Assembly (NCBI RefSeq): GCF_020379485.1
Contig: NC_063439.1
Coordinates: forward strand, 14,143,683 to 14,207,682
Source of the DNA: Brassica napus
Taxonomy: Eukaryota > Streptophyta > Magnoliopsida > Brassicales > Brassicaceae
DNA length: 64,000 bases
Direction of reading: 5' to 3'
The notes under the pieces were generated by a model. It had not been told where the DNA came from and did no database searches. It saw only the letters and a program-made list of their open reading frames with translations. A program made the translations under genes and the position numbers. This document shows positions 8,423 to 49,330 of this stretch, in pieces; within the stretch, counting starts at the first letter, position 1; each line of letters opens with the position of its first letter.

Positions 8423-8426
8423 AATT

Positions 8427-8445: not shown

Positions 8446-8532
8446 CTTTGATCGCCGTTAGATTTAGTTTTATTGATTCTTATTCTTTTCTCTACCCCTT
8501 TCTAATAATTTTTTTATTGTCTTTTCAGGTGC

Positions 8533-10933: not shown

Positions 10934-11310
10934 GGCATGCCCACCTTCACATTTCAACACATCCAGACCACTTCAGATCAGTTTAAAAACGTGAGTGAAA
11001 GTAGAGAGAAAAAGCAAGAGGTTTCGATAGTTTTCGAGATCAGTTATGTTGAGGTCAAAATCGGTCACGACGGAATCAATGTCTGAAAGTCCGTAAAAAT
11101 CAGCATAACCGTTTTTACGAAAAGTAATCTTCATAGAGATATCTTTACGAACAGCCTTGCAGTAAAATATCGTCCAAATCTCAATCGAACCACTAAATAC
11201 CGATTGTCCGAAGGCAACGGACACGTATCCAAATCGGCCGCGGACAAGCTCGAGTATGGAAATCAGACCGCGGACAAGCCAAGCTCGATCGATACGCGGC
11301 GACCAAGCAT

Positions 11311-14300
11311 GCACACAGCTCGGTCGCTACGTAGCGACCGAGCATCCGTCTCGCTCGGTCGCTACGTAGCGACCGAGCCCGAGCCAAGCTCGGTCGCTAC
11401 GTAGCGACCGAGCGATCGTCCCGCCGCTACGTAGCGACCGAGCGATCGCTACGTAGCGACCGAGCGATCGTCCCGCTCGGTCGCTACGTGGCGACCGAGC
11501 TCGAGCCAAAGCTCGGTCGCTACGTAGCGACCGAGCTCGAGCCAAAGCTCGGTCGCTACGTAGCGACCGAGCAATCGTCCCGCTCGGTCGCTACGTAGCG
11601 ACCGAGCGATCGTCCCGCTCGGTTGCTACGTAGCGACCGAGCTCGAGCCAAATCTCGGTCGCTACGTAGCGACCGAGCGATCGTCCCGCTCGGTCGCTAC
11701 GTAGCGACCGAGCTCGAGCCAAAGCTCGGTCGCTACGTAGCAACCGAGAGATCGTCCCCCTCGGTCGCTACGTAGCGACCGAGCGATCGTCCCGCTCGGT
11801 CGCTACGTAGCGACCGAGCGATCGTCCCGCTCGGTCGCTACGTGGCGACCGAGCTCGAGCCAAAGCTCGGTCGCTACGTAGCGACCGAGCGATCGTCCCG
11901 CTCGGTCGCTACGTAGCGACCGAGCAATCGTCCCGCTCGGTCGCTACGTAGCGACCGAGCGATCGTCCCGCTCGGTTGCTACGTAGCGACCGAGCTCGAG
12001 CCAAATCTCGGTCGCTACGTAGCGACCGAGCGATCGTCCCGCTCGGTCGCTACGTAGCGACCGAGCTCGAGCCAAAGCTCGGTCGCTACGTAGCAACCGA
12101 GAGATCGTCCCCCTCGGTCGCTACGTAGCGACCGAGCGATCGTCCCGCTCGGTCCGCTACGTAGCGACCGAGCGATCGTCCCGCTCGGTCGCTACGTGGC
12201 GACCGAGCTCGAGCCAAAGCTCGGTCGCTACGTAGCGACCGAGCGATCGTCCCGCTCAGTCGCTACGTAGCGACCGAGCGATCGTCCCGCTCGGTCGCTA
12301 CGTAGCGACCGAGATCGAGCCAAAGCTCGGTCGCTACGTAGCAACCGAGCGATCGTCCCGCTCGGTCGCTACGTAGCGGCCGAGCTCGAGCCAAAGCTCG
12401 GTCGCTACGTAGCAACCGAGAGATCGTCCCCCTCGGTCGCTACGTAGCGACCGAGAGATCGTCCCCCTCGGTCGCTACGTGGCGACCGAGCTCGAGCCAA
12501 AGCTCGGTCGCTACGTAGCAACCGAGAGATCGTCCCCCTCGGTCGCTACGTAGCGACCGAGCGATCGTCCCGCTCGGTCTCTACGTAGCGACCGAGATCG
12601 AGCCAAAGCTCGGTCGCTACGTAGCGACCGAGCGATCGTCCCGCTCGGTCGCTACGTAGCGACCGAGCTCAAGCCAAAGCTCGGTCGCTACGTAGCGACC
12701 GAGCGATCGTCCCGCTTGGTCGCTACGTAGCGACCGAGCTCGAGCCAAGATTGGTCGCTACATAGCGACCGGGCGATCGTCCCGCTCGGTCGCTACGTAG
12801 CGACCGAGCTCAGCCAAGCTCGGTCGCTACGTAGCGACCGAGCGATCGTCCCGCACGGTCGCTACGTAGCAACCGAGCGATCGTCCCGCTCGGTCGCTAC
12901 GTAGCGACCGAGCGATCGTCCCGCTCGGTCGCTACGTAGCGACCGAGCGATCGTCCCGCTCGTCGTCTACGTGGCGACCGAGCTTGAGCCAAGCTCGGTC
13001 GCTACGTAGCAACCGAGCGATCGTCCCGCTCCGTCACTACGTGGCGACCGAGCTCAAGCCAAAGCTCGGTCGCTACGTAGCGACCGAGCGATCGTCCCGC
13101 TTGGTCGCTACGTAGCGACCGAGCGATCGTCCCGCTTGGTCGCTACGTAGCGACCGAGCTCGAGCCAAAGATTGGTCGCTACATAGCGACCGGGCGATCG
13201 TCCCGCTCGGTCGCTACGTAGCGACCGAGCTCAGCCAAGCTCGGTCGCTACGTAGCGACCGAGCGATCATCCCGCTCGGTCGCTACGTAGCAACCGAGCG
13301 ATCGTCCCTCGGTCGCTACGTAGCGACCGAGCGATCGTCCCGCTCGGTCGCTACGTAGCGACCGAGCGATCGTCCCGCTCGGTCGCTACGTGGCGACCGA
13401 GCTCGAGCCAAAGCTCGGTCGCTACGTAGCGACCGAGCGATCGTCCCGCTCGGTCGCTACGTAGCGACCGAGCGATCGTCCCGCTCGTCTCTACGTAGCG
13501 ACCGAGATCGAGCCAAAGCTCGGTCGCTACGTAGCGACCGAGCGATCGTCCCGCTCGGTCGCTACGTAGCGACCGAGCTCAAGCCAAAGCTCGTCGCTAC
13601 GTAGCGACCGAGCGATCGTCCCGCTTGGTCGCTACGTAGCGACCGAGCTCGAGCCAAAGATTGGTCGCTACATAGCGACCGGGCGATCGTCCCGCTCGGT
13701 CGCTACGTAGTGACCGACGATCGTCCCGCTCGTTCGCTACGTAGCAACCGAGCGATCGTCCCGCTCGGTCGCTACGTAGCGACCGAGCGATCGTCCCGCT
13801 CGTTCGCTACGTAGCGACCGAGCTCGAGCCAAAGCTCGTTCGCTACGTAGCAACCGAGCGATCGTCCCGCTCGGTCGCTACGTGGCGACCGAGCTCGAGC
13901 CAAGCTCGGTCGCTACGTGGCGACCGAGCTCGAGCCAAAGCTCGGTCGCAACGCAACGACCGAGCGATCGTCCCGCTCGGTCGCTACGTAGCGACCGAGC
14001 TCAGCCAAGCTCAGTCGCTACGTAGCGACCGAGCGATCGTCCGCTCGGTCGCTACGTAGCGACCGAGCTCGAGCCAAAGCTCGGTCGCTACGTAGCGACC
14101 GAGTGATCGTCCCGCTCGGTCGCTACGTGGCGACCGAGCTCGAGCCAAAGCTCGGTCGCTACGTAGCGACCGAGCGATCGTCCCGCTCGGTCGCTACGTA
14201 GCGACCGAGCTCGAGCCAAAGCTCGGTCGCTACGTAGCGACCGAGCGATCGTCCCGCTCGGTCGCTACGTAGCGACCGAGCTCAGCCAAGCTCGGTCGCT

Positions 14301-15570
14301 ACGTAGCGACCGAGCGATCGTCCCGCTCGGTCGCTACGTAGCGACCGAGCTCGAGCCAAAGCTCGGTCGCTACGTAGCGACCGAGCGATCGTCCCGCTCG
14401 GTCGCTACGTAGCGACCGAGCTCAGCCAAGCTCGGTCGCAATGTAGCGACCGAGCGCTCGTCCAGCTCGGTTGCTACGTAGCGACCGAGCTCGAGCCAAA
14501 GCTCTGTCGCTACGTAGCGACCGAGCGATCGTCCCGCTCGTCGCTACGTGGCGACCGAGCTCGAGCCAAAGCTCGGTCGCTACGTAACGACCGAGCGATC
14601 GTCCCGCTCGGTCGCTACGTAGCGACCGAGCTCAGCCAAGCTCAGTCGCTACGTAGCGACCGAGCGATCGTCCCGCTCGGTCCGCTACGTAGCGACCGAG
14701 CTAAGCCAAGCTCAGTCGCTACATAGCGACCGAGCGATCGTCCCGCTCGGTCGTTACATGGCGACCGAGCACGAGCCAAAGCTCGGTCGCTACTAGCGAC
14801 CGAGCGGTCGTCCTGCTCGGTCGCTACGTAGCGACCGAGCTCAGCCAAGCTCGTCGCTACGTAGCGACCGAGCGATCATCCCGCTCAGTCGCTACGTAGC
14901 GACCGAGATCGAGCCAAAGCTCGGTCGCTACGTAGCGACCGAGCGATCGTCCCGCTCGGTCGCTACGTGGCGACCGAGCTCCAGCGATCGTTCCGCTCGG
15001 TCGCTACGTAGCGACCGACCCGCTCGGTCGCTACGTAGCGACCGAGCTCGAGCCAAAGCTCGGTCGCTACGTAGCGACCGAGCGATCGTCCCGCTCGGTC
15101 GCTACGTAGCGACCGAGCTCGAGCCAAAGCTCGGTCGCTACGTAGCGACCGAGCGATCGTCCCGCTCGGTCGCTACGTAGCGACCGAGCTCGAGCCAAAG
15201 CTCGGTCGCTACGTAGCGACCGAGCGATCATCCGCTCGGTCGCTACGTAGCGACCGAGCTCGAGCCAAAGCTCGGTCGCTACGTAGCGATCGAGCGATCG
15301 TCCCGCTCGGTCGCTACGTAGCGACCGAGCTCGAGCCAAAGCTCGGTCGCTACGTAGCGACCGAGCGATCGTCCCGCTCGGTCGCTACGTAGCGACCGAG
15401 CGATCGTCCCGCTCGGTCGCTACGTAGCGACCGAGCGATCGTCCCGCTCGGTCGCTACGTAGCGACCGAGCTCAGCCAAGCTCGGTCGCTACGTAGCGAC
15501 CGAGCGCTCGTCCCGCTCGGTCGCTACGAAGCAACCGGGCTCGAGCCAAAGTTCGGTCGCTGTGTAGCGA
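11311..15570. repeat. Array of about 120 copies of a 26-bp perfect palindrome
   Basis: The unit is GCTCGGTCGCTAC followed by its exact reverse complement, centred on TACGTA. Copies are joined by two alternating spacers, gatcgtccc (9 bases) and tcgagccaaa (10 bases; a short form tcagccaa also occurs), giving 35-36-bp steps. Many variants are C-to-T or G-to-A at CpG (TAGCAACC, GGTTGC, CTACATAG). Longer blocks recur, for example 'aatctcgg' blocks about 352 bases apart (11651 and 12003). Read as protein it gives meaningless ARSLRSDRA or LGRYVATE repeats on both strands. Confidence 0.97.
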
Positions 15571-15991
15571 TTGAACCTTTCCGAACGTCAATACGACACC
15601 AGTTCTTGCATTCTCGTCAAAACCTTCGAATGCTATCTCCCGAAGACCGTAGCAAGCTCAGTCCATGTTTCCCGCCATTCTAATTCATCGATCAAACTTC
15701 GCGGATTAGAAACCGCGGAAAACTCGTAGTAAACGTGTCGAGTCGGAAGACGGCCCAAAGGGACCTAAAACACGACTCGAGGCCCATCCTATGATTTTCC
15801 TAACCAAAAGCCCGTAAACCACAGCCTGGTTACGCTTGGTCCACAAGGAAGGATAAATGTCAAGTTTCCGCGGATAAATACGGAAGTTTTGAAGATAATT
15901 GTGAAGATCGGGAAAAATGGAATATCTCCATTTTTATGCTATGACGGCTTAAGGGCAGAAGAGTAAAAGCGTAAACCGACCTTGGAGCTAG

Positions 15992-16000
15992 TATATAAGG
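15992..16000 (+). promoter_or_regulatory. TATA box of the LARD 5' LTR
   Basis: TATATAAGG, about 420 bases downstream of the array end. It is kept at the same place in the other LTRs (24866-24874; complements at 28161-28169, 36607-36615 and 44218-44226). The palindrome array therefore lies in U3, upstream of the promoter. Confidence 0.7.
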
Positions 16001-16563
16001 AGTCCTAGGCGAGGAGCAAGGGAGAGAACTTTTTAGATTCGGAATTCTCTGCACTTAGAAACTTTAGGCTTATTCTCGACAAGTTCGGTTTCTATGACTG
16101 GCACTCAATTACTAGACGAACTCGCCCAGGCAGTTCGATCTCTTGTCCAGCTCTATCAATTGAACTACGTTCGGCTTGATCCTCGAAAGGGGTACGTAGG
16201 CAGCCTTTAACAAGGTTCAGTCCGAAATCAATCTAAGCCTTTTAGATATCTTTTTCGTCCTTTGTTATCGAGCTGCGACTCAACTAGGATTAGGGTTTTA
16301 TGTTGCTAGAACTAGGTAACTCGCTGACGGCCCCCTGCGGCCAAAGCCTTTGTATTCTCTTGTAATGATCGCAACGCTCTTACGCGGACTCGAAATAAGA
16401 TCTACTGTTTTCTCTAAACTCGTTTGTTATCTTTTCATGATTTCCGCATATATTCGATCACTTGTCGTTGGCTCTCGCAGAGATCCGGGACCTCTGGGAA
16501 ATTAGGGTTTTCCTAGTTTCCTTATTTAAACGGAAATCGACAGTGCGAATTTCGGTTCCCACA

Positions 16564-16583
16564 GTTTGGCGCTAGAAGGAGGG
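16564..16583 (+). other. Primer binding site of the LARD
   Basis: TTTGGCGCTAGAAGGAGGG directly after the LTR, identical to the Tat1 PBS. It links this element to the Tat lineage although no pol is present. Confidence 0.8.
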
Positions 16584-16606
16584 GAGGTAACGGATTACTC
16601 TTACTC

Positions 16607-17071
16607 ATGGCCACAAAACGCTTGATCGAAACGATGTCTGGATATATGAAAGATAAACTCGTAGCACTGACTGCTCCTATTGCCAACGCTTACGCAAACG
16701 CCGTAGTTTTGAAAATCGAAAACTTAGTCGCGGCCTTCCGCCACAGGAAGAGCACTAAAACAAGCTCGCGATTTCTCCCTGTAAACAAGAAGGGAAACGA
16801 TAAATCTTATCAAAACCCCGTAAACAAATCTCGATGCGTAAGGGTTTTACCAAAACACGTTTTCCGAAAACATTTCGGAAGGATAAAACTTGTTCTCCCA
16901 AAAAAACCGCTGAAAAACCCCTACGTTAATCGCGGAAAAAGGAAACACAACAAAACGATCACACTGCTCGGTCACGCACACGCTGCTCGGTCGCTACGTA
17001 GCGACCGAGCACGCACACGGCTCGGTCGCTATGTAGCGACCGAGCACACACGCTGCTCGGTCGCTACGTAG
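16607..17071 (+). CDS. Short ORF after the PBS, unknown; runs into palindromes
   Basis: The ATG at 16607 is the first after the PBS, at the place where gag starts in relatives. The first 120 or so codons are basic (many K, R, N) and show no domain I recognise and no clear similarity to the gag at 43776. From about codon 125 the frame is palindrome sequence (ARSLRSDRA type). It may be a wrecked gag start or chance. Function unknown; probably not a real protein gene. Confidence 0.25.
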
Positions 17072-17330
17072 CGACCGAGCACGCACGCTGCTCGGTCGCT
17101 ACGTAGCGACCGAGCACGCACGCTGCTCGGTTGCTACGTAGCGACCGAGCACGCACGCTGCTCGATCGCTATGTAGCGACCGAGCACGCACACGCTGCTC
17201 GGTCGCTACGTAGCGACCGAGCACGCACACGCTGCTCGGTCGCGACGTAGCGACCGAGCACGCACACTGCTCGTTCGCTACGTAGCGACCGAGCACGCAC
17301 ACGCTGCTCGGTCGCTACGTAGTGACCGAG
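16976..17330. repeat. Second palindrome cluster with a different spacer
   Basis: About ten copies of the same 26-bp palindrome sit in the internal region, but joined by acgcacacgct-type spacers (9-11 bases) instead of the two LTR spacers. One arm mutation (tcgcgacgtag) and several CpG decays are seen. The palindrome, not the spacer, is what is shared with the LTR array. Confidence 0.93.
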
Positions 17331-17335
17331 CTCAA

Positions 17336-18240
17336 GCCAACTCTCCACTCGCTACATAGCGACCTGTAAGGCCTCAGAAAGGTCCTCTTTTGGGTTCTCT
17401 TTTGAATCCTTGTCGAAACACTTTTCGTTTCGTCTCAATCGGAGTTTCCGTTGAGATTTTACGACGAAAACAAGTAGGACTCTTCTCGGCTTGCTTCCAC
17501 TCGCTACGTAGCGACCTGTCAGACTGTCAGTCGCTACGTAGCGACCTGTAAGGCCTCAGAAAGGTCCTCCTTTGGGTTCTCTTTTAAATCCTCGTCGAAA
17601 CGCTTTTCGTTTCGTCTCAATCGGAGTTTCCGTTGAGATTTTACGACGAAAACAAGTGGGACTCGTCTCGGCTTGCTTCCACTCGCTACGTAGCGACCTG
17701 TCAGACTGTCAGTCGCTACGTAGCGACCTGTAAGGCCTCAGAAAGGTCCTCCTTTGGGTTCTCTTTTGAATCCTCGTCGAAACGCTTTTCGTTTCGTCTC
17801 AATTGGAGTTTCCGTTTAGATTTTACGACGAAAACAAGTAGGACTCTTCTCGGCTTGCTTCCACTCGCTACGTAGCGACCTGTCAGACTGTCAGTCGCTA
17901 CGTAGCGACCTGTAAGTCCTCAAAGGGTTCCTCCTTTGCGTTCTTCTTTGAATCCTCTTCGAAACGCTTTTCGTTTCGTCTCAATCGGAGTTTCCGTTGA
18001 GATTTTACGACGAAAACAAGTGGGACTCGTCTCGGCTCCCTTCCACTCGCTATAGCGACCGAGATGACATCCTCACTCGCTATAGCGTCCTGTCAGGCCT
18101 CAAAGGGGTCCTCCTTTGCGTTCTCCTTTGAATTCTCATTGAAACGCTTTTCGTTTCGTCTCAATCGGAGTTTCCGTTGAGATTTTACGACAAAAACAAG
18201 TAAACCTCATCTTAAACTCCTTGGCTTGTTTCTGCTCACC
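17336..18240. repeat. 182-bp tandem repeat containing the palindrome core
   Basis: About four and a half units. The word ttgcttccac starts at 17491, 17673 and 17855, exactly 182 bases apart. Each unit has two copies of the 14-bp core TCGCTACGTAGCGA (flanks 'cac...cctgtcag' and 'cag...cctgtaagg') and about 120 bases of other sequence with 'gaaacgcttttcgtttcg', itself a dyad. The last units are degenerate and the cores shorten to TCGCTATAGCG. It is noncoding. Confidence 0.92.
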
Positions 18241-18330
18241 CTACCTCCATCTTTGCGTTCACTTTCGAATATCGATCGAAACGTCTCTTGTTTCGCCTCG
18301 ATTGAAGTTACCATTGAGACTTTACGATAT

Positions 18331-18350
18331 AAAAAAAAAAAAAAAAAAAA
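18331..18350 (+). repeat. Poly(A) run of 20
   Basis: Twenty consecutive A residues at the right edge of the tandem repeat region. It is a simple repeat with no LINE or SINE features next to it. Confidence 0.9.
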
Positions 18351-20678
18351 CAAACCGCAAAGACCTATTTTCTCGCATGGATTCAGATTAATCGTATAAA
18401 ACGGCAATGGTTAACTTAACACCTTAGCCGCCTTAACTATACGATTACGTTGAACTTTTTTTACAAAAATCGACGTCTTATCTAAGGAGAAGATAACAGT
18501 CAAGTTCGGAAGATAAATGTCAAGTTTCAAAGGATAAACACCAATATCGGAAATGGCGAACATACACGAGAATAGGAAACGGAAATGAGCACGCAAAACT
18601 GAGAAGGGACAAAACTGCATCTTCGAGAGAACTAAGGTATTTCCGACTTGAAATTTTTGAAATCAGACTTGGAGTTTTCGTAGGAAATTACTTTGAGGCT
18701 GCCATAGAACTTTAGGGAACGTAAAACCTAGGCGGATAGTCTAGCGAACTAAGTTTTAAGCGATTTTTCCTGTCTCGATATATTGTTCCATAATTGGTCA
18801 TCCAGATCTTGCAAACCGATCTAAACTCTCCGAAAGTCGAGAAACGATCGCCACACATATCAAGCTCGCTTCCTAAAAAGAGAAAAAGTTAGAGACATGA
18901 ACGTCGTCTTAAAACCGATTCATTTCTGGCAATTTCCTCGGAACCGACATATCCCAAGTCGTCAACGTGGAAACAACCAAATCACAGTCCAAGCGTAACC
19001 TATGAAAAACGTCCCGCGACTAGATCGTATTGAAATAAACTTCGGTAATACTCCATGGGTAACTCCAAGCAACTTTCACCTAAGATCAAAATCACAACGG
19101 GAACGTTTCTCGTAGAACCCGCAGAAACAATGCTACTTTGACATATGTATACATATCACTGAGTTACGACCTTCGTAAAATCGGTTATGTGATATGATAA
19201 ATTATCGTATAGCCCACAGTCGGAAATCATATGATAAATTCTTCGTAACGAAACTAATTCCTAACAACCAAACGGTTAACGGAAAATCGAAACTTTTCGA
19301 AAATTGACCAAGTTCAATACGCTCCTCCAAGCCCGCAACGTTTTAACCGTAATACGCAGCATGTAAGGAAAAATTCAGAACAAAGCTCCTAGAGCTATAC
19401 GAAACATCCTAAAGAATCCACGAAATAGATCTCGGATGGCCAACACTTCACAAAACACTATGAAGGAACACGCCTGTTCCCATGGACAAATTTACATGAC
19501 ACCTCAGTCATAATTCCTCGATCGCAAATAAAACTATTAGCATCCAAACAGGAACAACAATTTTGGCTGCGAACATTTGTAGTCAAACCAGAATGTTTCT
19601 CAAACGCAGGGCTAAGACTAAACCCTTGCAACATCGCGAAACATCTACAAACCCGCGAACATTTCGAGCCCGAAACGCGGCATACAAAAGAATAACAAAT
19701 CTTCAGCATCGCGAGACGTCGCAGACGCCTGAAGATTCGTTCTTCGACAAAATTTCCTTCCTCGATAAAAACATTTTCTTGGAAGACCAGACAGTCATAC
19801 GCACTAACATCTTCTCAAAACATATCCTTCGCGAAGACTCGAAACGGTATTTTTTACCATTAAGTTTGTTGCTGATCACAACAAACTCTCAACGTCCTAA
19901 ACAGACTTAGCCATCTCGTAGAGATGACTCTCGTACATCCGACACAAGGATAATAGCGCTATAAAAGAAATCCGAAATTTTGGTCCAGCACTTCCGATCT
20001 CCGGAGAGATGCTCGATTCCAACCATACAAGTCGTATAAGCCGAGAACCTATCGCGGACTTTAAATCGGTATGGAATCAGGATGAAACTGAAACGGGATA
20101 CGTAAGTCGAATTAGTCATCGCACCCTCTAAAACCAGGAGTAAACCTAGGTCTTGCCCTAAACCCAGCGCACTGGTCTCTAACATCTCTAGGCATAGTAT
20201 CAAACACCCTGATACGAGATCCCAAAATTTGTCTCTTTGCCAATATTCGAGAATCTTCAGAAATCCCGCAAGTTTACACACTGCGGAAAACTCTCGAAAC
20301 AGATTACGGATATAGCAATTCACACAGAGTTAGATTACGAGATGACAACTCGTAGTTTTTCTTCTACATCCATACAAAATGCCATTGGCAGCAACACGCC
20401 TTATAACCGCTACATAAAAACTAGACCATAAAGGTTTCACTAGAAAACTGGTCATAAGATCCTTAACTCAAAGACGAACTACGAAAGGCTTGATCCCTTC
20501 AACAAGGGTACGTAGGCAGCCGTCATAAGGCGCAGCCCCAATCTTATCGCGTTTTCTACTTTTAGGAGAGCGAGAAGATCACTTACCACAGACCTTTTCA
20601 ACCATTAATTCCGCCTAACTCACCTAACTTGCCTAAAGCCACTCGCTAGAACCTCACGCTAGAAGCTCATGATTCTAA
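18351..20678 (+). other. Noncoding internal spacer of the LARD
   Basis: No coding region is convincing here. Parts match the reverse complement of the post-aORF spacers of relatives: the 'cctaggtcttgccctaaac' block near 20148 has counterparts near 40435 and 51585. At 20490-20517 is a copy of the hairpin/TACGTAGGCAGC motif. The LARD thus kept the spacer that lies between pol and the antisense ORF in full elements and lost both genes. Confidence 0.7.
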
Positions 20679-20695
20679 CGAGCTGGGGGGCTAAC
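20679..20695 (+). other. Polypurine tract of the LARD
   Basis: CGAGCTGGGGGGCTAAC lies directly before the 3' LTR. Its complement lies beside the LTRs at 31104, 31658 and 38016, so it is the family's plus-strand primer site. Confidence 0.8.
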
Positions 20696-20959
20696 TGTTG
20701 GGGTCAAAATCGGTCACGACGGAATCAATGTCTGAAAGTCCGTAAAAATCAGCATAACCGTTTTTACGAAAAGTAATCTTCGTAGAGATATCTTTACGAA
20801 CAGCCTTGCAGTAAAATATCGTCCAAATCTCAATCGAACCACTAAATACCGATTGTCCGAAGGCAACGGACACGTATCCAAATCGGCCGCGGACAAGCTC
20901 GAGTATGGAAATCAGACCGCGGACAAGCCAAGCTCGATCGATACGCAGCGACCAAGCAT

Positions 20960-23900
20960 GCACACAGCTCGGTCGCTACATAGCGACCGAGCATCCGTCT
21001 CGCTCGGTCGCTACGTAGCGACCAAGCAATCGTCCCACTCGGTCGCTACGTAGCGACCGAGCTCGTGCCAAAGCTCAGTCGCTACGTAGCGACCGAGCGA
21101 TCGTCCCGCTCGGTCGCTACGTAGCGACCGAGCTCGAGCCAAAGCTCGGTCGCTACGTAGCGACCGAGCGATCGTCCCGCTCGGTCGCTACGTAGCGACC
21201 GAGCGATCGTCCCGCTCGGTCGCTACGTAGCGACCGAGCGATCGTCCCGCTCGGTCGCTACGTAGCGACCGAGCGATCGTCCCGCTCGGTCGCTACGTGG
21301 CGACCGCGCTCGAGCCAAAGCTCGGTCGCTACGTAGCGACCGAGCGATCGTCCCGCTCGGTCGCTACATAGCGACCGAGCGATCGTCCCGCTCGATCGCT
21401 ACGTAGCGACCGAGCTCAGCCAAGCTCGGTCGCTACGTAGCGACCGAGCGATCGTCCCGCTCGGTCGCTACGTAGCGACCGAGCTTCGGTCGCTACGTAG
21501 CAACCGAGCGATCGTCCCGCTCGGTCGCTACGTAGCGACCGAGCTCAGCCAAGCTCGGTCGCTACGTAGCGACCGAGCGATCGTCCCGCTCGGTCGCTAC
21601 GTAGCGACCGAGCTCGAGCCAAAGCTCGGTCGCTACGTAGCGACCGAGCGATCGTCCCGCTAGGTCGCTAAGTGGCGACCGAGCTCGAGCCAAAGCTCGG
21701 TCGCTACGTAGCGACCGAGCGATCGTCCCGCTCGGTCGCTACGTAACGACCGAGCTCGAGCCAAAGCTCGGTCGCTGCGTAGCGACCGAGCGATCGTCCC
21801 GCTCGGTCGCTAGGTAGCGACCGAGCTCAGCCAAGCTCGGTCGCTACGTAGCGACCGAGCGATCGTCCCGCTCGGTCCCTACGTAGCGACCGAGCTCGAG
21901 CCAAAGCTCGGTCGCTACGTAGTGACCAAGCGATCGTCCCGCTCGGTCGCTACGTAGCGACCGAGCTCGAGCCAAAGCTCGGTCGCTACGTAGCGACCGA
22001 GCGATCGTCCCGCTCGGTCGCTACGTAGCGACCGAGCTCAGCCAAGCTCGGTCGTACGTAGCGACCGAGCGATCGTCCGCTCGGTCGCTACGTAGCGACC
22101 GAGCTCGAGCCAAAGCTGGTCGCTACGTAGCGACCGAGCGATCGTCCCGCTCGGTCGCTACGTAGCGACCGAGCTCAGCCAAGCTCGGTCGCTACGTAGC
22201 GACCGAGCGATCGTCCCGCTCGGTCGCTACGTAGCGACCGAGCTCGAGCCAAAGCTCGGTCGCTACGTAGCGACCGAGCGATCGTCCCGCTAGGTCGCTA
22301 AGTGGCGACCGAGCTCGAGCCAAAGCTCGGTCGCTACGTAGCGACCGAGCGATCGTCCCGCTCGGTCGCTACGTAACGACCGAGCTCGAGCCAAAGCTCG
22401 GTCGCTGCGTAGCGACCGAGCGATCGTCCCGCTCGGTCGCTACGTAGCGACCGAGCTCAGCCAAGCTCGGTCGCTACGTAGCGACCGAGCGATCGTCCCG
22501 CTCGGTCCCTACGTAGCGACCGAGCTCGAGCCAAAGCTCGGTCGCTACGTAGTGACCAAGCGATCGTCCCGCTCGGTCGCTACGTAGCGACCGAGCTCGA
22601 GCCAAAGCTCGGTCGCTACGTAGCGAACGAGCGATCGTCCCGCTCGGTCGCTACGTAGCGACCGAGCTCGAGCCAAAGCTCGGTCGCTACGTAGCGACCG
22701 AGCGATCGTCCCGCTCGGTCGCTACGTAGCGACGAGCGATCGTCCCGCTCGGTCGTTACGTGGCGACCGCGCTCGAGCCAAAGCTCGGTCGCTACGTAGC
22801 GACCGAGCGATCGTCCCGCTCGGTCGCTACATAGCGACCGAGCGATCGTCCCGCTCGATCGCTACGTAGCGACCGAGCTCAGCCAAGCTCGGTCGCTACG
22901 TAGCGACCGAGCGATCGTCCCGCTCGGTCGCTACGTAGCGACCGAGCTTCGGTCGCTACGTAGCAACCGAGCGATCGTCCCGCTCGGTCGCTACGTAGCG
23001 ACCGAGCTCGAGCCAAAGCTCGGTCGCTACGTAGCGACCGAGCGATCGTCCCGCTAGGTCGCTAAGTGGCGACCGAGCTCGAGCCAAAGCTCGGTCGCTA
23101 CGTAGCGACCGAGCGATCGTCCCGCTCGGTCGCTACGTAACGACCGAGCTCGAGCCAAAGCTCGGTCGCTGCGTAGCGACCGAGCGATCGTCCCGCTCGG
23201 TCGCTAGGTAGCGACCGAGCTCAGCCAAGCTCGGTCGCTACGTAGCGACCGAGCGATCGTCCCGCTCGGTCCCTACGTAGCGACCGAGCTCGAGCCAAAG
23301 CTCGGTCGCTACGTAGTGACCAAGCGATCGTCCCGCTCGGTCGCTACGTAGCGACCGAGCTCGAGCCAAAGCTCGGTCGCTACGTAGCGACCGAGCGATC
23401 GTCCCGCTCGGTCGCTACGTAGCGACCGAGCTCAGCCAAGCTCGGTCGCTACGTAGCGACCGAGCGATCGTCCCGCTCGGTCGCTACGTAGCGACCGAGC
23501 TCGAGCCAAAGCTTGGTCGCTACGTAGCGACCGAGCGATCGTCCCGCTCGGTCGCTACGTAGCGACCGAGCTCAGCCAAGCTCGGTCGCTACGTAGCGAC
23601 CGAGCGATCGTCCCGCTCGGTCGCTACGTAGCGACCGAGCTCGAGCCAAAGCTCGGTCGCTACGTAGCGACCGAGCGATCGTCCCGCTAGGTCGCTAAGT
23701 GGCGACCGAGCTCGAGCCAAAGCTCGGTCGCTACGTAGCGACCGAGCGATCGTCCCGCTCGGTCGCTACGTAACGACCGAGCTCGAGCCAAAGCTCGGTC
23801 GCTGCGTAGCGACCGAGCGATCGTCCCGCTTGGTCGCTACGTAGCGACCGAGCTCAGCCAAGCTCGGTCGCTACGTAGCGACCGAGCGATCGTCCCGCTC

Positions 23901-24437
23901 GGTCCCTACGTAGCGACCGAGCTCGAGCCAAAGCTCGGTCGCTACGTAGTGACCAGCGATCGTCCCGCTCGGTCGCTACGTAGCGACCGAGCTCGAGCCA
24001 AAGCTCGGTCGCTACGTAGCGACCGAGCGATCGTCCCGCTCGGTCGCTACGTAGCGACCGAGCTCAGCCAAGCTCGGTCGCTACGTAGCGACCGAGCGAT
24101 CGTCCCGCTCGGTCGCTACGTAGCGACCGAGCTCGAGCCAAAGCTTGGTCGCTACGTAGCGACCGAGCGATCGTCCCGCTCGGTCGCTACGTAGCGACCG
24201 AGCTCGAGCCAAAGCTCAGTCGCTACGTAGCGACCGAGCGATCGTCCCGCTTGGTCGCTACGTAGCGACCGAGCGATCGTCCTGCTCGGTCGCTACGTAG
24301 CGACCGAGCGATCGTCCCGCTCGGTCGCTACGTAGCGACCGAGCTCAGCCAAGCTCGGTCGCTACATAGCGACCGAGCGCTCGTCCCGCTCGGTCGCTAC
24401 GAAGCAACCGGGCTCGAGCCAAAGTTCGGTCGCTGTG
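20960..24437. repeat. Palindrome array of about 98 units with higher-order repeats
   Basis: Same unit and spacers as 11311-15570. A marker variant, taggtcgctaagtggcgacc, starts at 21661, 22291, 23055 and 23688, giving steps of 630, 764 and 633 bases. Neighbouring variants (ccctacgtag, tagtgacc, gctgcgtag) repeat in the same order. This is a higher-order repeat of about 18 palindromes, absent as such from the 5' array. Confidence 0.93.
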
Positions 24438-24865
24438 TAGCGATTGAACCTTTCCAAACGTCAATACGACACCAGTTCTTGCATTCTCGTCAAAACCTTC
24501 GAATGCTATCTCCCGAAGACTGTAGCAAGCTCAGTCCATGTTTCCCGCCATTCTAATTCATCGATCAAACTTCGCGGATTAGAAACCGCGGAAAACTCGT
24601 AGTAAACGCGTCGAGTCGGAAGACGGCCCAAAGGGACCTAAAACACGACTCGAGGCCCATCCTATGATTTTCCTAACCAAAAGCCCGTAAACCACAGCCT
24701 GGTTTACGCTTGGTCCACAAGGAAGGATAAATGTCAAGTTTCCGCGGATAAATACGGAAGTTTTGAAGATAATTGTGAAGATCGGGAAAAATGGAATATC
24801 TCCATTTTTATGCTATGACGACTTAAGGGCAGAAGAGTAAAAGCGTAAACCGACCTTGGAGCTAG

Positions 24866-24874
24866 TATATAAGG
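24866..24874 (+). promoter_or_regulatory. TATA box of the LARD 3' LTR
   Basis: TATATAAGG in the same context as 15992-16000. If used, it would drive outward transcription into the family-C LTR. Confidence 0.6.
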
Positions 24875-26014
24875 AGTCCTAGGCGAGGAGCAAGGGAGAG
24901 AACTTTTTAGATTCGGAATTCTCTGCACTTAGAAACTTTAGGCTTATTTTCGACAAGTTCGGTTTCTATGACTGGCACTCAATTACTAGACGAACTCGCC
25001 CAGGCAGTTCGATCTCTTGTCCAGCTCTATCAATTGAACTACGTTCGGCTTGATCCTCGAAAGGGGTACGTAGGCAGCCTTTAACAAGGTTCAGTCCAAA
25101 ATCAATCTAAGCCTTTTAGATATCTTTTTCGTCCTTTGTTATCGAGCTGCGACTCAACTAGGATTAGGGTTTTATGTTGCTAGAACTAGGTAACTCGCTG
25201 ACGGCCCCCTGCGGCCAAAGCCTTTGTATTCTCTTGTAATGATCGCAACGCTCTTACGCGGACTCGAAATAAGATCTACTGTTTTCTCTAAACTCGTTTG
25301 TTATCTTTTCATGATTTCCGCATATATTCGATCACTTGTCGTTGGCTCTCGCAGAGATCCGGGACCTCTGGGAAATTAGGGTTTTCCTAGTTTCCTTATT
25401 TAAACGGAAATCGACAGTGCGAATTTCGGTTCCCACAAGTTACTACACCAGTTTTGGATCGACGCCTAGAGAAGTTTCTGTTTGAGTTGAGAGTTGTTCA
25501 AGGGAGGCCATTCAGGGTTAGGCACGCCATTAAGATCAGTTGGGATAGGAGGCTACTTGAGGAGTTCAAGAAATGGTTTTGGTCGAGGATTCGGGCAAGG
25601 GTCAAAGCCACAACGAACCAAACACGGTGAGTCACGGAAATTGATTGCTGACTTGTTTTCATGCAGGTTCCCGTTACTTGGAGGTTGGATCATGGCAGGA
25701 GGCTGGGTCTAACTTAGTAACGGTTTGATTAGTTAATAGTCGAGGTTTGGTTGAGTTGATAGCATGCTTAGTTATTGTTTGGGAATCGTAGTAACATGCT
25801 GATTGTTAGGTTGCTTGGTTAGTTAGCGAATGCGAACCCTTAGATAATATTGCTAGGTTGTGGATAGATAGGTATTCTGGAATCTATCCTTGGTTGATTT
25901 CTAGGCTGTTAGATAGCATGCATAGATGATTATTGCTATTGCGTTATTATCGGTTTGCATGCATGGATTGTGATGTTGTTGTTTCAGTTGATTATATGTT
26001 AGTACTAGGCAACT

Positions 26015-27595: not shown

Positions 27596-28930
27596 TGTGG
27601 AAACCGAAATTCGCACTGTCGATTTCCATTTAAATTGAGAAACTAGGAAAAACCTAATTTCCCAGAGGTCCCGGATCTCTGCGAGAGCCAACGACAAGTG
27701 ACCAAATATATGCGGAAATCATGAAAAGATAACAAACGAGTTTAGAGAAAACAGTAGATCTTATTTCGAGTCCGCGTAAGAGCGTTGCGATCATTACAAG
27801 AGATCATGAAAGCTTTGGCCGCAAAGGCTGTCAGCGAGTTATTTAGTTCTAGCGGCCTAATAGCTCAAACCTAGTTGAGTCGCAGCTCGATAACAAAAGA
27901 CAAAATAGATACAGAAAAGGTTTTTGATTGATTTCGGACTGAACCTTGTTAAAGGCTGTATACGTACCCCTTTCAAAGATCAAGCCGAACGTAGTTCAAT
28001 TGATAGAGCTGGACAAGAGATCGAACTGCCTGGGCGAGTTCGTCTAGTAATTGAGTGCCAGTCATAGAAACCGAACTTGTCGAGAATAAAGCCTAAAGTT
28101 TCTAAGTGCAGAGAATTCCGAGTCTAAAAAGTTGCCCCCCCATGCCTCTCGCCTAGGACTCCTTATATACTTGCTCCAAGGTCGGTTTACGCTTTTACTC
28201 TTCTGCCCTTAAGCCATCATAGCATAAAATGGAGATATTCCATTTTTTCCGATCTTCGTAATTATCTTTAAAATTCCGTATTTATCCGCGGAAACTTGAC
28301 ATTTATCTTCCCTTGCGAACCAAGCATAAACCGTCCTACGGTTTACGGGCTTTTGGTTAAGAAATCGTAAGATGGGCCTCGAGTCGTGTCTTAGGTCCCT
28401 TTGGGCCGTATTCCGACTGGAAACGTTTATTGCGACTTCTTTCGATAAAAAACGGACTTTCCGCAGTTTTTACCGCAAAGTTTGATCGATTATTTAGAAT
28501 GGCAGAAAACATGAACTGAGTTTGCTACAGTCTTCGGGAGATAGAATTGAAGGATAGACGAGAACGCATGGACTGGTATCGTATCGACGTTTCGGAAGAG
28601 CTCGGTCGCTACGTAGCGACCGAGCTTGGCCAAAGCTCGGTTGCTACGTTGCGACCGAGCTGTGTGCATGCTTGGTTGCCGCATATCGATCGAGCTTGGC
28701 TTGTCTGCGGTCCGATTGCCATACTCGAGCTTGTCTGCGGCCGATTTGGATACATGTCCGTTGCCTTCGGACAATCGTATTTTGTGGTTTGATTGAGATT
28801 TGAACAAGATTTTACCGCAAGGCTCTTCGTAAAGATATCTTTACGAGGATTACTTTTCGTAAAAATGTTCATGCTGATTTTTACGGACTTTCAGACATTG
28901 ATTTCGTGGTGACCGATTTTGACCCCAACA
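27596..28930 (-). mobile_element. Solo LTR of the palindrome family, short form
   Basis: It begins TGTGGAAACCG and ends TTGACCCCAACA, 1,335 bp, flanked by GGCCC at 27591-27595 and 28931-28935. No internal region is left, so it is a solo LTR. It has a TATA complement at 28161-28169 and only two recognisable palindromes near 28600-28660 plus a decayed third. It shows what this LTR looks like without array growth. Confidence 0.93.
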
Positions 28931-30069: not shown

Positions 30070-31103
30070 TTTGAGAACCAAAATTTGCGCTGTTGATTTC
30101 CATTTTAAATAAGGAAAGTAGGAGAACCTAGTTTCCCAGAGGTCCCGGATATCTTCTAATACCACACGCTAAGCAATCAGAACACGAGATAGCAACGACA
30201 AAATATAAAAATCGTAAAAGAGAGCAAAGAGAAGTCTTATTCCGAATTTGTGTATGAGCGTTTACAACAAGGTATAAGCCTTGGCTTGAGAGCTGTCGGC
30301 GAGATTCCAAGTCCTAGCTACCCTAAGACGGCTAAACCTAATTGATTCGCAGCTCTAAATAACAAAAACGGAAAGTTGCCTAATTGCTCTAAGTGCTAAG
30401 TTTGCTGTGAAAAAGTTCTCTCTCCATGTCTCTCGCTTAGGACTCCTTATGTACTCGCTCCTAGGTCGGTTTACGCTTTCCCCTTCTGCCCTTAAGCTGT
30501 CATAGCCTAAAAATGGAGATATTCCATATTTCCCGATCTTCGTAATTATCTTCAAAATTTCGTATTTATCCGTGGAAACTTGACATTTATCTTTCCTTGC
30601 GAACCAAGTGTAAACCGTCCTACGGTTTACGAGCTGCTGGTAAAGAAATCGTAAAGTCGGCTTTAAGTCATGTCTTAGGTCCCTTTGGACCGTCTTTTGA
30701 CTTGAAGCGTTAATTACGACTTCTTTCGATAAAAACGAACTTTCCGCGGTTTTTATCGTCAAGTTTGATTGATGACTTCAAATGACGGATAACATGAAAT
30801 TGGTTCGCTGCGGTCTTCGGGAGATAGCATCAAAGGGTAGACGAGAATGCATGGATCCGTGTCGTATCGATGTTTCAGAAGAGCTCGGTCGCTGCGTAGC
30901 GACTGAGCGGGACGTGCACTCAGTCGCTCTGTAGCGACCGTGCGACCTTATTTGGGCTTTTCTCCGATGTCTCGTGTTTCTTCCGCAAACCTCTTCGTAA
31001 GAACAAATCTTTTCCGAAAAAGTATTTGTCATAGAAAAATTCTTACTTTCTTCTTTTGACGTTTTGAATGTTAACTTCGTCGCAACCATTTTTGACACCA
31101 ACA
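30070..31103 (-). repeat. 3' LTR of TatB (1,034 bp)
   Basis: It aligns with the solo LTR at 27596-28930. The terminus is mutated (TTTGAGAACC instead of TGTGGGAACC) and the right end is CACCAACA. The TATA box has decayed (CCTTATGTA near 30444). Two palindromes are left near 30885-30945. It looks older than the LARD LTRs. Confidence 0.85.
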
Positions 31104-31120
31104 GTTAGCCCCCCAGCTCG
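31104..31120 (-). other. Polypurine tract of TatB (first copy)
   Basis: 'gttagccccccagctcg' is the complement of the family PPT and lies directly beside the LTR end. Confidence 0.75.
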
Positions 31121-31657
31121 TTAGAATCCTGGATCGAGAGACGAGATTCTAGCGCGCGGTTTGGGCGATTTAGGCGACCGAGCTTGGCTTGAGCCCGGTC
31201 GCTATGTAGCGACCGGGCGGGATGCACGCTCGGTCGCTACGTAGTGACCGGGCGGGATGCATGCTCGGTCGCTACGTAGCAACCGAGCTTGGCTTAAGCT
31301 TGATTGCTACGTAGCGACCGATCGGGATGCACGCTCGGTCGCTACAAAGTGACCGAGCTTGGCTCGAGCTCGGTTGCTAAGTAGCAACCGAGCGGGCGCG
31401 TGCTCGGTTGCTATGTAGCGACCGAGCATGGCTCGAGCTCGGTCTCTACGTAGAAACCGAGCGGGATGTACGCTCGGTCGCTATGTAGCGACTGTGCGAC
31501 CTTATTTGGGCTTTTCTCCGATGTCTCGTGTTTCTTCCGCAAAGCTCTTCATAAGAACAAATCTTTTCCGAAAAAGTATTTATCGTAGAAATTTTTTTTC
31601 TTTCTTCTTTTGACGTTTTGAATGTTAACTCTGTCACAACCGTTTTTGACCCCAACA
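31104..31657 (-). repeat. 554-bp tandem duplication of PPT plus LTR end
   Basis: The LTR end followed by the PPT occurs at 31103/31104 and again at 31657/31658, with the same 'gagacgagattctagcg' and 'cgatttaggcg' blocks after each. Between them is a small palindrome cluster (31170-31490, about eight decayed copies) and another copy of the LTR terminal 160 bases. The join 'ttaggcg/accgag' falls at a palindrome both times, so recombination between palindromes is the likely cause. Confidence 0.8.
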
Positions 31658-31792
31658 GTTAGCCCCCCAGCTCGTTAGAATCGTGGATTGAGAGACGAGA
31701 TTCTAGCGTGCGGTTTGGGCGATTTAGGCGACTGAGCTTGGCTTGAGCCCGGCCGGTACGTAGCGACCGAGCAGGATGCACGCTCGGTCGCT

Positions 31793-36232: not shown

Positions 36233-38015
36233 TGTGGGAACCGAAATTCACACTGTCGATTTCCGTTTAAATAAGGAAACTAGGAAAACCCTAATTTCCC
36301 AGAGGACCCGGATATCTGTTAATTACCACACGTCAAGCAATCAGAACACGAGAATAACAACGATAAAAATAAGAAATCGAAAAGAGAGCAAAGTAGATCT
36401 TATTCCGAATCTGCGTATGAGCGTTACAACAAGGTATAAGCCGGGGCTCGAGAGCTGTCGGCGAGATTCCTAGTTCTAGCAACCCTAAGACGGCTAAACC
36501 TAATTGAGTCGCAGCTCGAAATAACAAAAACGGAAAATTGCCTAAATTGCTCTAAGTGCTAAGTTTGCTCTGAAAAAGTCCTCCTCCTTGCTCCTCGCCT
36601 AGGACTCCTTATATACTAGCTCCAAGGTCGGTTTACGCTTTTACTCTTCTGCCCTTAAGCCGTCATAGCATAAAAATGGAGATATTCCATTTTTCCCGAT
36701 CTTCACAATTATCTTCAAAACTTCCGTATTTATCCGCGGAAACTTGACATTTATCCTTCCTCGTGGGCCAAGCGTGAACCATGCTGCGGTTCACGGGCTT
36801 TTGGTTAGGAAAAATCGTAGGATGGGCCTCGAGTCGTGTTTTAGGTCCCTTTGGGCCGTCTTCCGACTCGACACGTTTACTACGAGTTTTCCGCGGTTTC
36901 TAATCCGCGAAGTTTTATCGATGAATTAGAATAGCGGGAAACATGGACTGAGCTTGCTACGGTCTTCGGGAGATAGCATTTGAAGGTTTGACGAGAATGC
37001 AAGGACTGGTGTCGTATCGATGTTCGGAAAGGTTCAATCGCTACTCAGCGACCGAACTTTGGCTCGAGCCCGGTCGCTACGTAGCGACCGAGCGAGACGA
37101 GTGCTCGGTCGCTACGTAGCGACCGAGCGAGACGAGTGCTCGGTCACTACGTAGCGACCGAGCTTTGGCTCGAGCTCGGTCGCTACGTAGCGACCGAGCG
37201 GGACGATCGCTCGGTCGCTACGTAGCGATCGAGCTTGGCCGAGCTCGGTCGCTACGTAGCGACCAAGCGGGACGATCGCTCGGTCGCTACGTAGCGACCG
37301 AGCTTTGGCTCGAGCTCGGTCGCTATGTAGCGACCGTGCGGGACGATCGCTCGGTCGCTACGTAGCGACCGAGCTTGGCCGAGCTTGGTCGCTACGTAGC
37401 GACCGAGCTTTGGCTCGAGCTCGGTCGCTACGTAGCGACCGAGCGGTACGATCGCTCGGTCGCTACGTAACGACCGAGCTTGGCTGAGCTCGGTCGCTAC
37501 GTAGCGACCGAGCGGGACGATCGCTCGGTCGCTACGTAGCGACCGAGCGGGACGATCGCTCGGTCGCTACGTAGCGACCGAGCTTTGGCTCGAGCTCGGT
37601 CGCTACGTAGCGACCGAGCGGGACGATCGCTCGGTCGCTACGTAGCGACCGAGCTTGGCTGAGCTCGGTCGCTACGTAGCGACCGAGCGGGACGATCGCT
37701 CGGTCGCTACGTAGCGACCGAGCTTTGGCTCGAGCTCGGTCGCTACGTAGTGACCAAGCGGGACGATCGCTCGGTCGCTACGTAGCGACCGAGCTTTGCT
37801 CGGGATTGGTTGCTGCATAGCGACCGGACGGCGTGTATGCGTGGTGACCGAGCTTGGTTTGTTCGGTTTGAATCCCAAAGGATACTTCTTCGTAAAAACT
37901 TCGTATTGGTTATTTTTACGAAAATTACATCTCTTCTTTTACTATCTCTTTCGGAAATACGATCTCCGAGGATTTTCGGGTGGTAATTCCGTCGTAACCG
38001 TTTTTGACCCCAACA
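36233..38015 (-). repeat. 3' LTR of PAL-Tat (1,783 bp, 21 palindromes)
   Basis: TGTGGGAACCG to TTGACCCCAACA, with the TATA complement at 36607-36615. The part from 36233 to 37028 and the last 170 bases match the other LTR of this element. Between them lies the palindrome array. Confidence 0.93.
37029..37840. repeat. Palindrome array of 21 units plus decayed edges
   Basis: The same 26-bp palindrome as in the LARD, in opposite orientation, so the spacers read gggacgatc and tttggctcga. The outer copies (near 37036 and 37808) are decayed, and the inner ones are near perfect and almost identical. The partner LTR keeps the decayed outer pair and just one inner copy. Confidence 0.95.
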
Positions 38016-38033: not shown

Positions 38034-38269
38034 AGGATCATGCATCGTAGGATCCTAGCGTGCGGTTAGGCATGTTTGGCAAGTTAGGCGTGATGGATGG
38101 AATTAATATCCGAAAGTCCGAGCTTGAATAGTAAATCCTCATGCTTATAAGAAGGGAGGTAACTTGTTCCATAATTTTTTCACTTTCTTGTTTTTCTCTA
38201 AGATCTTTCTTAAAAAACTTTCTATCTTTCTCTCCACCCTTTTTCTATTCTCTCAAGAGAAGTGTAAAG

Positions 38270-40063
38270 ATGTCGAGCAAGAAAAAGATTGCGAAAAAAG
38301 GGTCTTCGTCCGCGAGTCCTTATGAAGAGCTCGTCGTTCCGAAGATGGAGTTCGTGCCTCACTCGGTGCATCCTGCCGAGAACGAGGCATGGTGGGTTGC
38401 TCATTATGGCTCGTTGACCCCTCCCAAGGAGAAGCCGTTCCCGGTCCTGGTCCATCGTGGAGTCGAGGAAGAGGATGCAAGCAGGACTACTGACGAGTTT
38501 CTCGCGACGATGCGATCGTTCTACCACATCCCGGATGCTGTGGAGTTCCGGGTTCCCTGCCGCGGGGAATGTGCTAACAGCCCCCCGGAGGGTTACTTTA
38601 CTTGCTATGAGGCGTTCGTAGTGCGTTGTCGCCTATGGTTCCCCATACCCGAAATTCTCGTCCGAGTGTTGGATCGTTTCGAAGTTGCGATAAGTCAGTT
38701 GACACCCCTTGCCATTCAGCATCTTATTGGGATCCTGATCCTAAGCTACGAGCATGGCCTTTCCCTTTCCGTCGATCATTATGAAGCGCTTTTGAGGCTT
38801 CAACTTGTCAGGGGTACGGATAAGCATAGGTTGGTCCCTCGGAAATTTATGTCAGTGGTTAAGAAGTTTATTTCGAACTTCAACTCGTGGAAGAAGTTCT
38901 TTTTCTTTGTTCGTATAGACGCTGCATCCGTCGAAGAGAGTTGCATTCCACTGTTCCGGAGGTTGCCGAATGATCGTCCCTTCATCAACCCTTTGCTCCG
39001 TTCCCCGAGGACATCATTTCGGTGAGGGATCTTCTCAGGAATGGTCCCTTCTTCTGGACTTCTTTTACGCCGAAGAGGGTTCGGAAGGCACTGAGATTCG
39101 TGCAACCCGGTCCTGCTTTGGATGCGGACACGGGAAGCGACTCCGAACCCGACGACCAGAATCCCGTCGAAGCTCCAACAGCTGTGCCGGAGTCGAGCTC
39201 TTGGAAGGGAAAAGATGTCGATCTTGGCGACATAGAGTTTTCGATGGATGACTCTATGCTTCCAGGATGGGATCCGAACCTTGCTTACGGCGACGGGAGC
39301 GGTTCGAGCGAGGCCCCTATTCCGGATTTCGATGATTTCTTTGCTGGGCTGCCATCGGGTTTCGATGCTCCTCCTCCTACGAAAGAATCGGCGAGGCCGA
39401 GAGTCGTTGCGGAAGGATCTCGCATCATCAATGGGGTTAGTTTTTTGAGAATTTTTTGGTGATTGTCCTGTGTATATGTTTATAACATGCCAATCGATTT
39501 TGCAGGGCCTGAGCTTGCTGGGCTCGGCCATTGAGGCGGGCCATAGAGAAGCCATGGTCTACCGCTTCAAAGCGGAGAAAGCGGAGCGGGATCTCGCTCG
39601 CGTGCAAGGCGAGATGCTGGAGCGAGAGGCGCAACTTACTCGTGATCATGCGCGGGCTGTTCGTAAAGCGGAGAGGAAAGGCAAAAGAGAAATCGTCGAG
39701 GTGATGAAGACTCGTGCATCTCAATTCCAGGTTGAGTATGGGAACCTCAAGAATGCCTTTACCTCGGTGGGTGACTTTCGCGAGTGCCGCGGTTCGGTCG
39801 GAAGTCTTTGGAGGACGCGAGCCGATGACTATGTGTTTGAAGAGGAAATGAGCTTGATGAAGAGTGGGATGAGTGAACGTGCCCATGCTGAGGCGCTTAT
39901 CCCTCCGATTGACGAGAAGATTCAAGGGTTCTGGGATTCCATCCCGGTTTCCCCTGATACCGAGGAGGTTCCGACCGGGTTTCCCGATGGTGGCGAGGAA
40001 GTGGATCGTCCCGCGGATGCGTTCGGCGCTTCGTTGTCCGGGGACTTTGACTTTGGATTATGA
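38270..40063 (+). CDS. Antisense ORF (aORF) of PAL-Tat, two exons, one frameshift
   Basis: Encoded against gag-pro, as known for Tat-lineage aORFs. ATG at 38270. The first 240 residues resemble the plant 'putative gypsy type transposon' domain (Pfam Transposase_28): [23 protein letters not shown], then [16 protein letters not shown]. An acidic linker follows ([17 protein letters not shown]), then exon 2 with a charged coiled-coil ([19 protein letters not shown]) and an acidic tail ending FGL. A 70-base intron, 39436-39505 (GTTAGT...TTGCAG), phase 0, joins the frames. One base appears missing near 38993. Full length would be about 570 residues. Role unknown. Confidence 0.72.
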
Positions 40064-49326: not shown

Positions 49327-49330
49327 AATT

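Follow-up and report, generated by a model that had tools for sequence, protein, structure and literature searches.

RESULTS

The locus and element A

The DNA analysed here is a 64,000-bp stretch of Brassica napus (hereafter the window; C159:14143683-14207682 of a 997-Mb Brassica assembly, with 0 N in the window), in which one long terminal repeat (LTR) retrotransposon, designated element A, carries two very long tandem arrays of a 26-bp palindrome, one in the U3 region of each LTR. Its parts are as follows, in window coordinates.

11042..11046, plus strand: left target site duplication (TSD), AGTTA, read from the sequence
11047-25437, plus strand: element A, an LTR pair flanked by TSD AGTTA
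11047..16563, plus strand: 5' LTR (A5), 5,517 bp, paired with A3 through its array flanks
11283..15576, plus strand: U3 palindrome array 1, 4,294 bp, 121 units (55 exact), period about 35 bp
15992..15999, plus strand: TATA box of A5, TATATAAG, 415 bp past the array end
16566..16579, plus strand: TTGGCGCTAGAAGG, which we take to be the primer-binding site
16985..17331, plus strand: internal array of 10 palindrome units separated by CACGCACACGCT-type spacers
17349..18202, plus strand: 182-bp tandem repeat, 4.7 copies, with shorter palindrome cores
20696..25437, plus strand: 3' LTR (A3), 4,742 bp, paired with A5 through its array flanks
20932..24449, plus strand: U3 palindrome array 2, 3,518 bp, 100 units (54 exact)
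25438..25442, plus strand: right TSD, AGTTA, read from the sequence

Both U3 arrays are a minisatellite with a 35-bp unit, in which copies of the palindrome GCTCGGTCGCTACGTAGCGACCGAGC alternate with spacers 8-10 bp long (chiefly GATCGTCCC, TCGAGCCAAA and TCAGCCAA). Palindromes with three or fewer mismatches number 248 in the window, against 0 in dinucleotide shuffles of it. Units of the element A arrays and of the contig C1 sample described below were counted at six or fewer mismatches, and most other counts were made at a limit of 8 or 9; the looser limit gives 122 and 101 units in A5 and A3 instead of 121 and 100. The original prediction, which described arrays of 4.25 and 3.5 kb with about 220 perfect palindromes, is closely matched in array length, in placement in the U3 of one element's two LTRs and in number (221 units), yet the palindrome is exact in only 109 of these units. 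Outside the arrays, the flanks of A5 and A3 differ at 8 of 1,223 bases.

The palindrome is CpG-rich, with an observed/expected (O/E) ratio of 1.76 compared with 0.78 at 45-64 kb of the window. A CpG excess is also found in element A outside the arrays (O/E 1.34 in the A5 flanks and 1.37 in the interior at 18205-20695), and CAG/CTG is scarce in element A (11047-20695) compared with the window at 45-64 kb. The one unit of the internal array that was searched has 195 exact matches in the assembly, so this type of unit is not confined to the present copy of element A. The interior is 4,132 bp long, and its two listed open reading frames (ORFs) of at least 130 aa contain no Pfam domain above cut-off; together with the LTR pair and its TSD, this agrees, as far as tested, with the earlier labelling of element A as a large retrotransposon derivative.

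Array length across the assembly

The exact 26-bp palindrome occurs 21,229 times in the assembly, and the same string reversed 0 times. Eighteen stretches around listed places on a single contig (C1) yielded 15 palindrome clusters, 14 of which adjoin LTR pieces of this family. On the contig sampled, the arrays thus do not lie mainly outside the LTR family, and no satellite array independent of the element was found in this sample, the sole non-LTR cluster being a single palindrome. This fifteenth cluster (L011:4791-4816, at C1:11213791) is a lone exact palindrome in an AT-rich tandem repeat; it has the flanks of the internal array (CACTG...CACGCA), the fetched stretch has no family LTR match, and it does not enter the LTR counts. 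The exact array-end signature is present at 858 places in the assembly. On contig C1, 51 of the 68 listed signatures fall at 15-19 Mb, which may point to a pericentromeric preference.

A search with the downstream half of the LTR gave 4,644 first-look candidates; 40 were scored, all at least 99% identical, and 20 were fetched. Nineteen were readable, the twentieth (L046, C850:8060-10030) being left out with N over 1,941 of its 1,971 bases. These 19 nearest siblings carry 13-34 units (median 22), and in the 18 for which the LTR start was found, 322 of 349 interior units are exact. As a check for hidden long arrays, six LTRs were taken from pairs 7.8-9.0 kb apart, out of a list of 38 spacings from which the 11.2- and 14.3-kb spacings and most others were left out; one had already been counted, and the five new LTRs have 9-26 units. 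Altogether 44 LTR arrays outside the window, a non-random collection comprising the C1 sample, the siblings, the spaced pairs and six later LTRs (L070 is an LTR already counted), have 1-34 units. The arrays of element A are therefore an outlier, at about five times the sibling median, although other giant arrays may exist elsewhere in the assembly.

Variants private to element A

Within the two long arrays, two marked stretches stand out.

12749..13693, plus strand: stretch with three copies of marker unit M, without exact match elsewhere in the assembly
21659..23721, plus strand: higher-order repeat with four copies of marker unit F, 630, 764 and 633 bp apart

Unit F has four exact matches in the assembly, all in A3, and unit M has three, all in A5; being without exact match elsewhere, neither was borrowed from another locus of the assembly. 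On the simplest reading, at least the segments carrying F and M were amplified at this locus after insertion. The two arrays contain 63 (A5) and 33 (A3) unit types, of which only 8 are common to both. Arrays so nearly disjoint might also be accounted for if element A were a recombinant of two insertions, an idea that we consider highly improbable: the 5-bp TSDs match, the flanks differ at only the 8 positions given above, and the two tested variants occur exactly in no other element. The earlier picture of LTRs growing into satellite DNA thus fits element A, with its fivefold excess over the 19 siblings and variants private to one LTR each, and fails as a family-wide trend, since the siblings have a median of 22 units and losses (D5 and E11.67, below) are as clear as gains.

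In the siblings, the palindrome has changed at 0.0035 per base and the spacers at 0.0114 (L041, without LTR start, was left out), a comparison weakened by variants shared through descent; no such lower rate in the palindrome was seen in A5, in A3 or in D3, an LTR described below.

Unequal arrays in LTR partners

Sixteen LTR pairs were compared (2 from the window, 4 from the C1 sample, 7 from the siblings and 3 added later). The number of units is unequal in 15 of the 16, and the flanks show 0-13 differences. Perfect 5-bp TSDs surround 14 of the pairs; of the other two, E12.909b has four matching bases out of five and L041/L042 has a damaged LTR start. The partners L033 and L034 have 0 differences in 1,221 flank bases, yet carry 18 and 20 units in a different order, and L032 and L031, with 1 difference in 1,221, have 15 and 20. 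In E11.67 the partners are separated by a 315-bp whole-unit indel, an array loss. No bias between 5' and 3' LTRs was found in the 16 pairs (7 versus 8, with one tie).

The distance in spacer order within pairs is 0.04-0.36 per unit (13 pairs), mostly like the median of 0.168 between elements (84 comparisons of 14 LTRs), all of these being rough values, since the spacer strings are of low complexity and their alignments saturate. Inheritance of an unchanged array is also seen: L036 has the spacer order of L039, which belongs to another element, and L039 and L040 differ at one spacer. Array changes are frequent and quick, and may occur at reverse transcription or soon after insertion.

One possible explanation is that the U3 array is reshuffled during reverse transcription, through template slippage at hairpins during plus-strand strong-stop or strand-displacement synthesis, so that insertions would often be born unequal. 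Pairs with 0 or 1 flank substitutions in 1,221 bases differ about as much as older pairs, order distance shows no significant correlation with divergence in either 13 or 16 pairs, distances within pairs resemble those between elements, and retroviral U3 repeat numbers shift on passage (PMC8473008). Nevertheless, we consider this account somewhat unlikely, as arrays can be inherited intact, the difference in array length may rise with flank divergence (rho 0.50, p 0.08, n=13), fast minisatellite mutation after insertion would yield the same picture, and the private amplified variants of element A fit later growth better.

Other family members and class of the family

The window contains further members of the family, as follows.

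27596..28930, minus strand: solo LTR B, same family, 3 units, TSD GGCCC
30074..31744, minus strand: older rearranged LTR C, 2 units, with 9 more at 31193-31497 and a duplicated 250-bp junction
36233..38015, minus strand: 3' LTR (D3) of element D, 23 units at nine or fewer mismatches
38141..40063, plus strand: ORFs of element D on the strand antisense to gag; the first resembles Transposase_28 at a score below the Pfam cut-off
41201..43279, minus strand: gag of element D (PF03732, 8.2e-19; PF19259, 2.6e-07), with aspartic-protease similarity below cut-off
43843..44925, minus strand: 5' LTR (D5) of element D, 3 units, TSD TTGAG

Element D spans 36233-44925 with TSD TTGAG, and its LTRs belong to a related subfamily: the part downstream of the array aligns over 739 bases with 47 differences and 22 gaps, and the part upstream of it aligns poorly. 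D3 and D5 differ by one clean 701-bp indel, equal to 20 units. The inner spacers of the D3 array are common to element A and the siblings, which makes a loss of units from D5 likelier than a gain in D3. Short LTR forms with one to three copies, as had been reported, are indeed present (at the looser limit, 3 units each in B and D5 and 2 in C), although D5 is the partner of the 23-unit D3 and not an independent short form. The distance of about 420 bases between array and TATA box given earlier is confirmed, at 415-416 bp in the LTRs of A and D and 430 bp in solo LTR B; no TATATA was found by script in LTR C.

In element C the 250-bp junction of LTR end and polypurine tract (PPT) is present twice (30941-31190 and 31495-31744), with 17 differences between the copies. 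The window also holds another palindromic motif, TCGATCGA (mostly in the form ATCGATCGAT), with 80 occurrences where about 1 is expected, frequently in 24-bp steps; it lies at 3051-8884, 32691-36090, 45254-50428 and 58653-63651, partly in ORFs with SID/TSID peptide repeats.

The gag of element D matches Retrotrans_gag and Ty3_capsid above cut-off and is thus of Ty3 type. It has no significant match in element A, in which decayed reverse transcriptase (RT) remnants were not searched for; RT is absent among the tested ORFs of A and D, and no search was made for an autonomous partner. Element A is placed in the Ty3/gypsy family through LTR similarity to D only. Through the antisense ORF of D, in which the TRP28 (PF04195) match is below cut-off, the family resembles the Ty3/gypsy Retand type; of the 120 listed homologues of this ORF, one carries PF04195 and four are named gypsy-type transposase. 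Retand has its antisense TRP28 ORF near the 3' LTR and its interior repeats before that LTR, and in element A the interior repeats lie at 16985-18202, closer to the 5' LTR. The palindrome has a Sirevirus trait, CGG-TCGCTACGTAGCGA-CCG, in an array 415-430 bp before the TATA box. Membership in the Sireviruses is ruled out by the Ty3-type gag of D and the differing PPT of A: the Sirevirus PPT, AGGGGGAG 10 bp before the 3' LTR, is not present in element A, which reads GAGCTGGGGGGCTAACTGTTGG before A3.

The antisense ORF raises the question of whether the arrays could be a binding platform for a Transposase_28-like protein acting, by analogy with VANC, against silencing. Antisense TRP28 ORFs, with probable DNA binding, are described in Retand (Vicient, 2025; PMC11963269), and the targets of VANC are tandem motifs that lie in noncoding regions and change rapidly (PMC5735166; PMC10398659). 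The D antisense ORF has 726 homologues, the 120 listed being from Brassica wherever named, and palindromes are present in both U3 and the internal array. Against this stand a score of 13.6 bits for PF04195 (TRP28) where the cut-off is 26.2, a structure prediction (35-sequence alignment) with a mean predicted local distance difference test score of 38.7, and, in element A, only short similarity to a homologue of the antisense protein. Such a role for the arrays would seem very doubtful.

DISCUSSION

Arrays occupy a single slot in the LTR, partners are unequal despite near-identical flanks, and arrays have been both shortened and lengthened. We hypothesize, with some confidence, that a repeated regulatory palindrome in U3 behaves as a minisatellite prone to hairpins, gaining and losing whole units, and that in element A its growth has gone unchecked. 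In this view, a young LTR family of Ty3/gypsy, Retand-like type would carry the 26-bp palindrome in its U3 as a repeated cis-regulatory box, and units of about 35 bp would be gained or lost after insertion, when hairpins give rise to slippage or unequal exchange; some of the change may already take place in reverse transcription. Folded as single-stranded DNA, the palindrome gives a hairpin of 11 bp and a 4-nt loop (-13.8 kcal/mol), and long paired stems are predicted for four units as one strand. The whole-unit differences, the decayed edge units and homogeneous interior of the arrays, and the absence of a bias between 5' and 3' LTRs fit slippage or unequal exchange. The boxes may be dyad-symmetric protein-binding sites, as suggested for the repeated motifs of Sireviruses, which would explain the upkeep of the arrays; regulation by the boxes would be the most likely reason for it. 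At the locus of element A, the F and M variants would have been amplified after insertion, array growth presumably running on without check.

Several observations weigh against this account. The partners of E12.909a have 10 units each at six or fewer mismatches (12 and 10 at nine or fewer), their spacer order nonetheless differing. Order distance shows no clear increase as the flanks diverge (rho 0.26, p 0.33, n=16; rho 0.12, p 0.71, n=13), so a steady clock running after insertion is not shown. F and M are the only two variants searched in the assembly, by exact match only, and their source could be an element missing from the assembly. Compensation between the palindrome arms is almost absent (only 3 of 118 imperfect units in element A have fewer arm mismatches than changes), and no selection for symmetry is therefore visible. 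Finally, the arrays of element A contain 4.5 times more distinct changes per base than those of the siblings, of a different kind: CpG transitions make up 20 of 71 distinct changes in A and 18 of 27 in the siblings (Fisher p 0.0009). The sibling proportion is what would be expected if the arrays were methylated. An early count over all 400 units gave 93 transitions at 10 CpG sites, compared with 39 at 8 other G/C sites; amplified variants inflate such a count, and that of distinct events is preferred.

This excess of changes in element A is not explained by simple slippage, and assembly error might explain it; either error-prone amplification or, in the two longest arrays, an erroneous consensus could be responsible. 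It is conceivable that the two long arrays are artefacts, in which ordinary arrays of some 20 units were falsely expanded or left as unpolished consensus. The density and spectrum of changes are in keeping with this, as is the maximum of 34 units among the 44 LTR arrays counted outside the window. Artefactual arrays are nonetheless an unlikely origin for F and M, which have no exact match elsewhere in the assembly, and for the different repeated variants of A5 and A3, in a window free of N.

The hairpin-prone minisatellite that we favour has relatives among known systems. A literature search that included the palindrome core returned no description of this array, as judged by titles and the starts of abstracts, and full texts may hold one. 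The repeated motifs of Sirevirus LTRs are dyad-symmetric boxes with a CGG-CCG signature in 12 of 13 elements; they mostly cluster upstream of the TATA box, within the LTR's upper half, and form CpG islands; there are 8-32 copies per element, 3-14 of them in the 3' LTR, and nine env-bearing Sireviruses have further boxes in the internal noncoding region (Bousios et al., 2010; PMC2829016). The palindrome described here likewise has the CGG-CCG signature, lies upstream of TATA, is CpG-rich and recurs in an internal array. In contrast to the Sirevirus boxes, it is 26 bp long, in regular tandem and in a family of Ty3/gypsy type, with 13-34 units per LTR in the siblings and 121 and 100 in element A. 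By analogy, the Sirevirus motif is the closer precedent for the palindrome, rather than an ACGT box alone. In the same report the repeated motif is termed specific to Sireviruses, which are Ty1/copia elements (PMC2829016), and in maize such structures are described as concentrated in copia LTRs, Ty3 elements generally showing no obvious peak (PMC10760457).

Satellite-like arrays arising from repeats inside LTR elements are also known from the Tat lineage (Vicient, 2025; Vondrak, 2020). Tandem repeats of Tat/Retand/Ogre elements are sources of satellites, expanding at some sites, and in Silene non-autonomous forms of Retand carry expanded tandem repeats (PMC11963269; PMC7004042; PMC12477314). 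Those repeats lie between the coding region and the 3' LTR, whereas the main array here is in the U3 of both LTRs.

Two less closely related systems share the mutability of the arrays. As with VANDAL VANC targets (PMC5735166; PMC10398659), a short motif forms fast-changing tandem arrays in noncoding DNA of a transposable element; VANC targets belong to another element class, have motifs in the same orientation and have a demonstrated binding protein, whereas any binding protein of the present palindrome would be putative. The other is the U3 of porcine endogenous retroviruses (PERV), where repeat number rises and falls as it does here, in 39-bp enhancer repeats (PMC8473008). PERV are retroviruses, their repeats are not described as palindromic in that source, and the changes there were followed in passage experiments (PMC8473008). 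Our arrays and the PERV repeats also differ in scale. The U3 repeats of PERV are present in few copies.

A broader scenario would combine these strands: palindromic boxes would have arisen convergently in Sireviruses and in this Retand-like family, hairpins would reshuffle U3 at reverse transcription and give LTRs that are unequal at birth, and some 20 boxes would be kept by selection while the element is active, with runaway growth into a satellite confined to one locus, as in element A, once it is silenced. We think this combination rather unlikely as a whole.

The arrays are a known type of box found in another superfamily, of unusual extent and measurably unstable between the partners of an LTR pair. 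An element's two LTRs are taken to be identical at insertion and are used as a clock. Here one part of the LTR, the array, gains and loses whole units, while in the 16 pairs the flanks stay near-identical (0-13 differences); such arrays could mislead LTR dating that counts array differences, and could equally help, as a fine barcode, to tell very young insertions apart. Element A represents a step between a promoter repeat and satellite-like DNA inside one young element, and a convergence of palindromic LTR control boxes between two LTR superfamilies is suggested.

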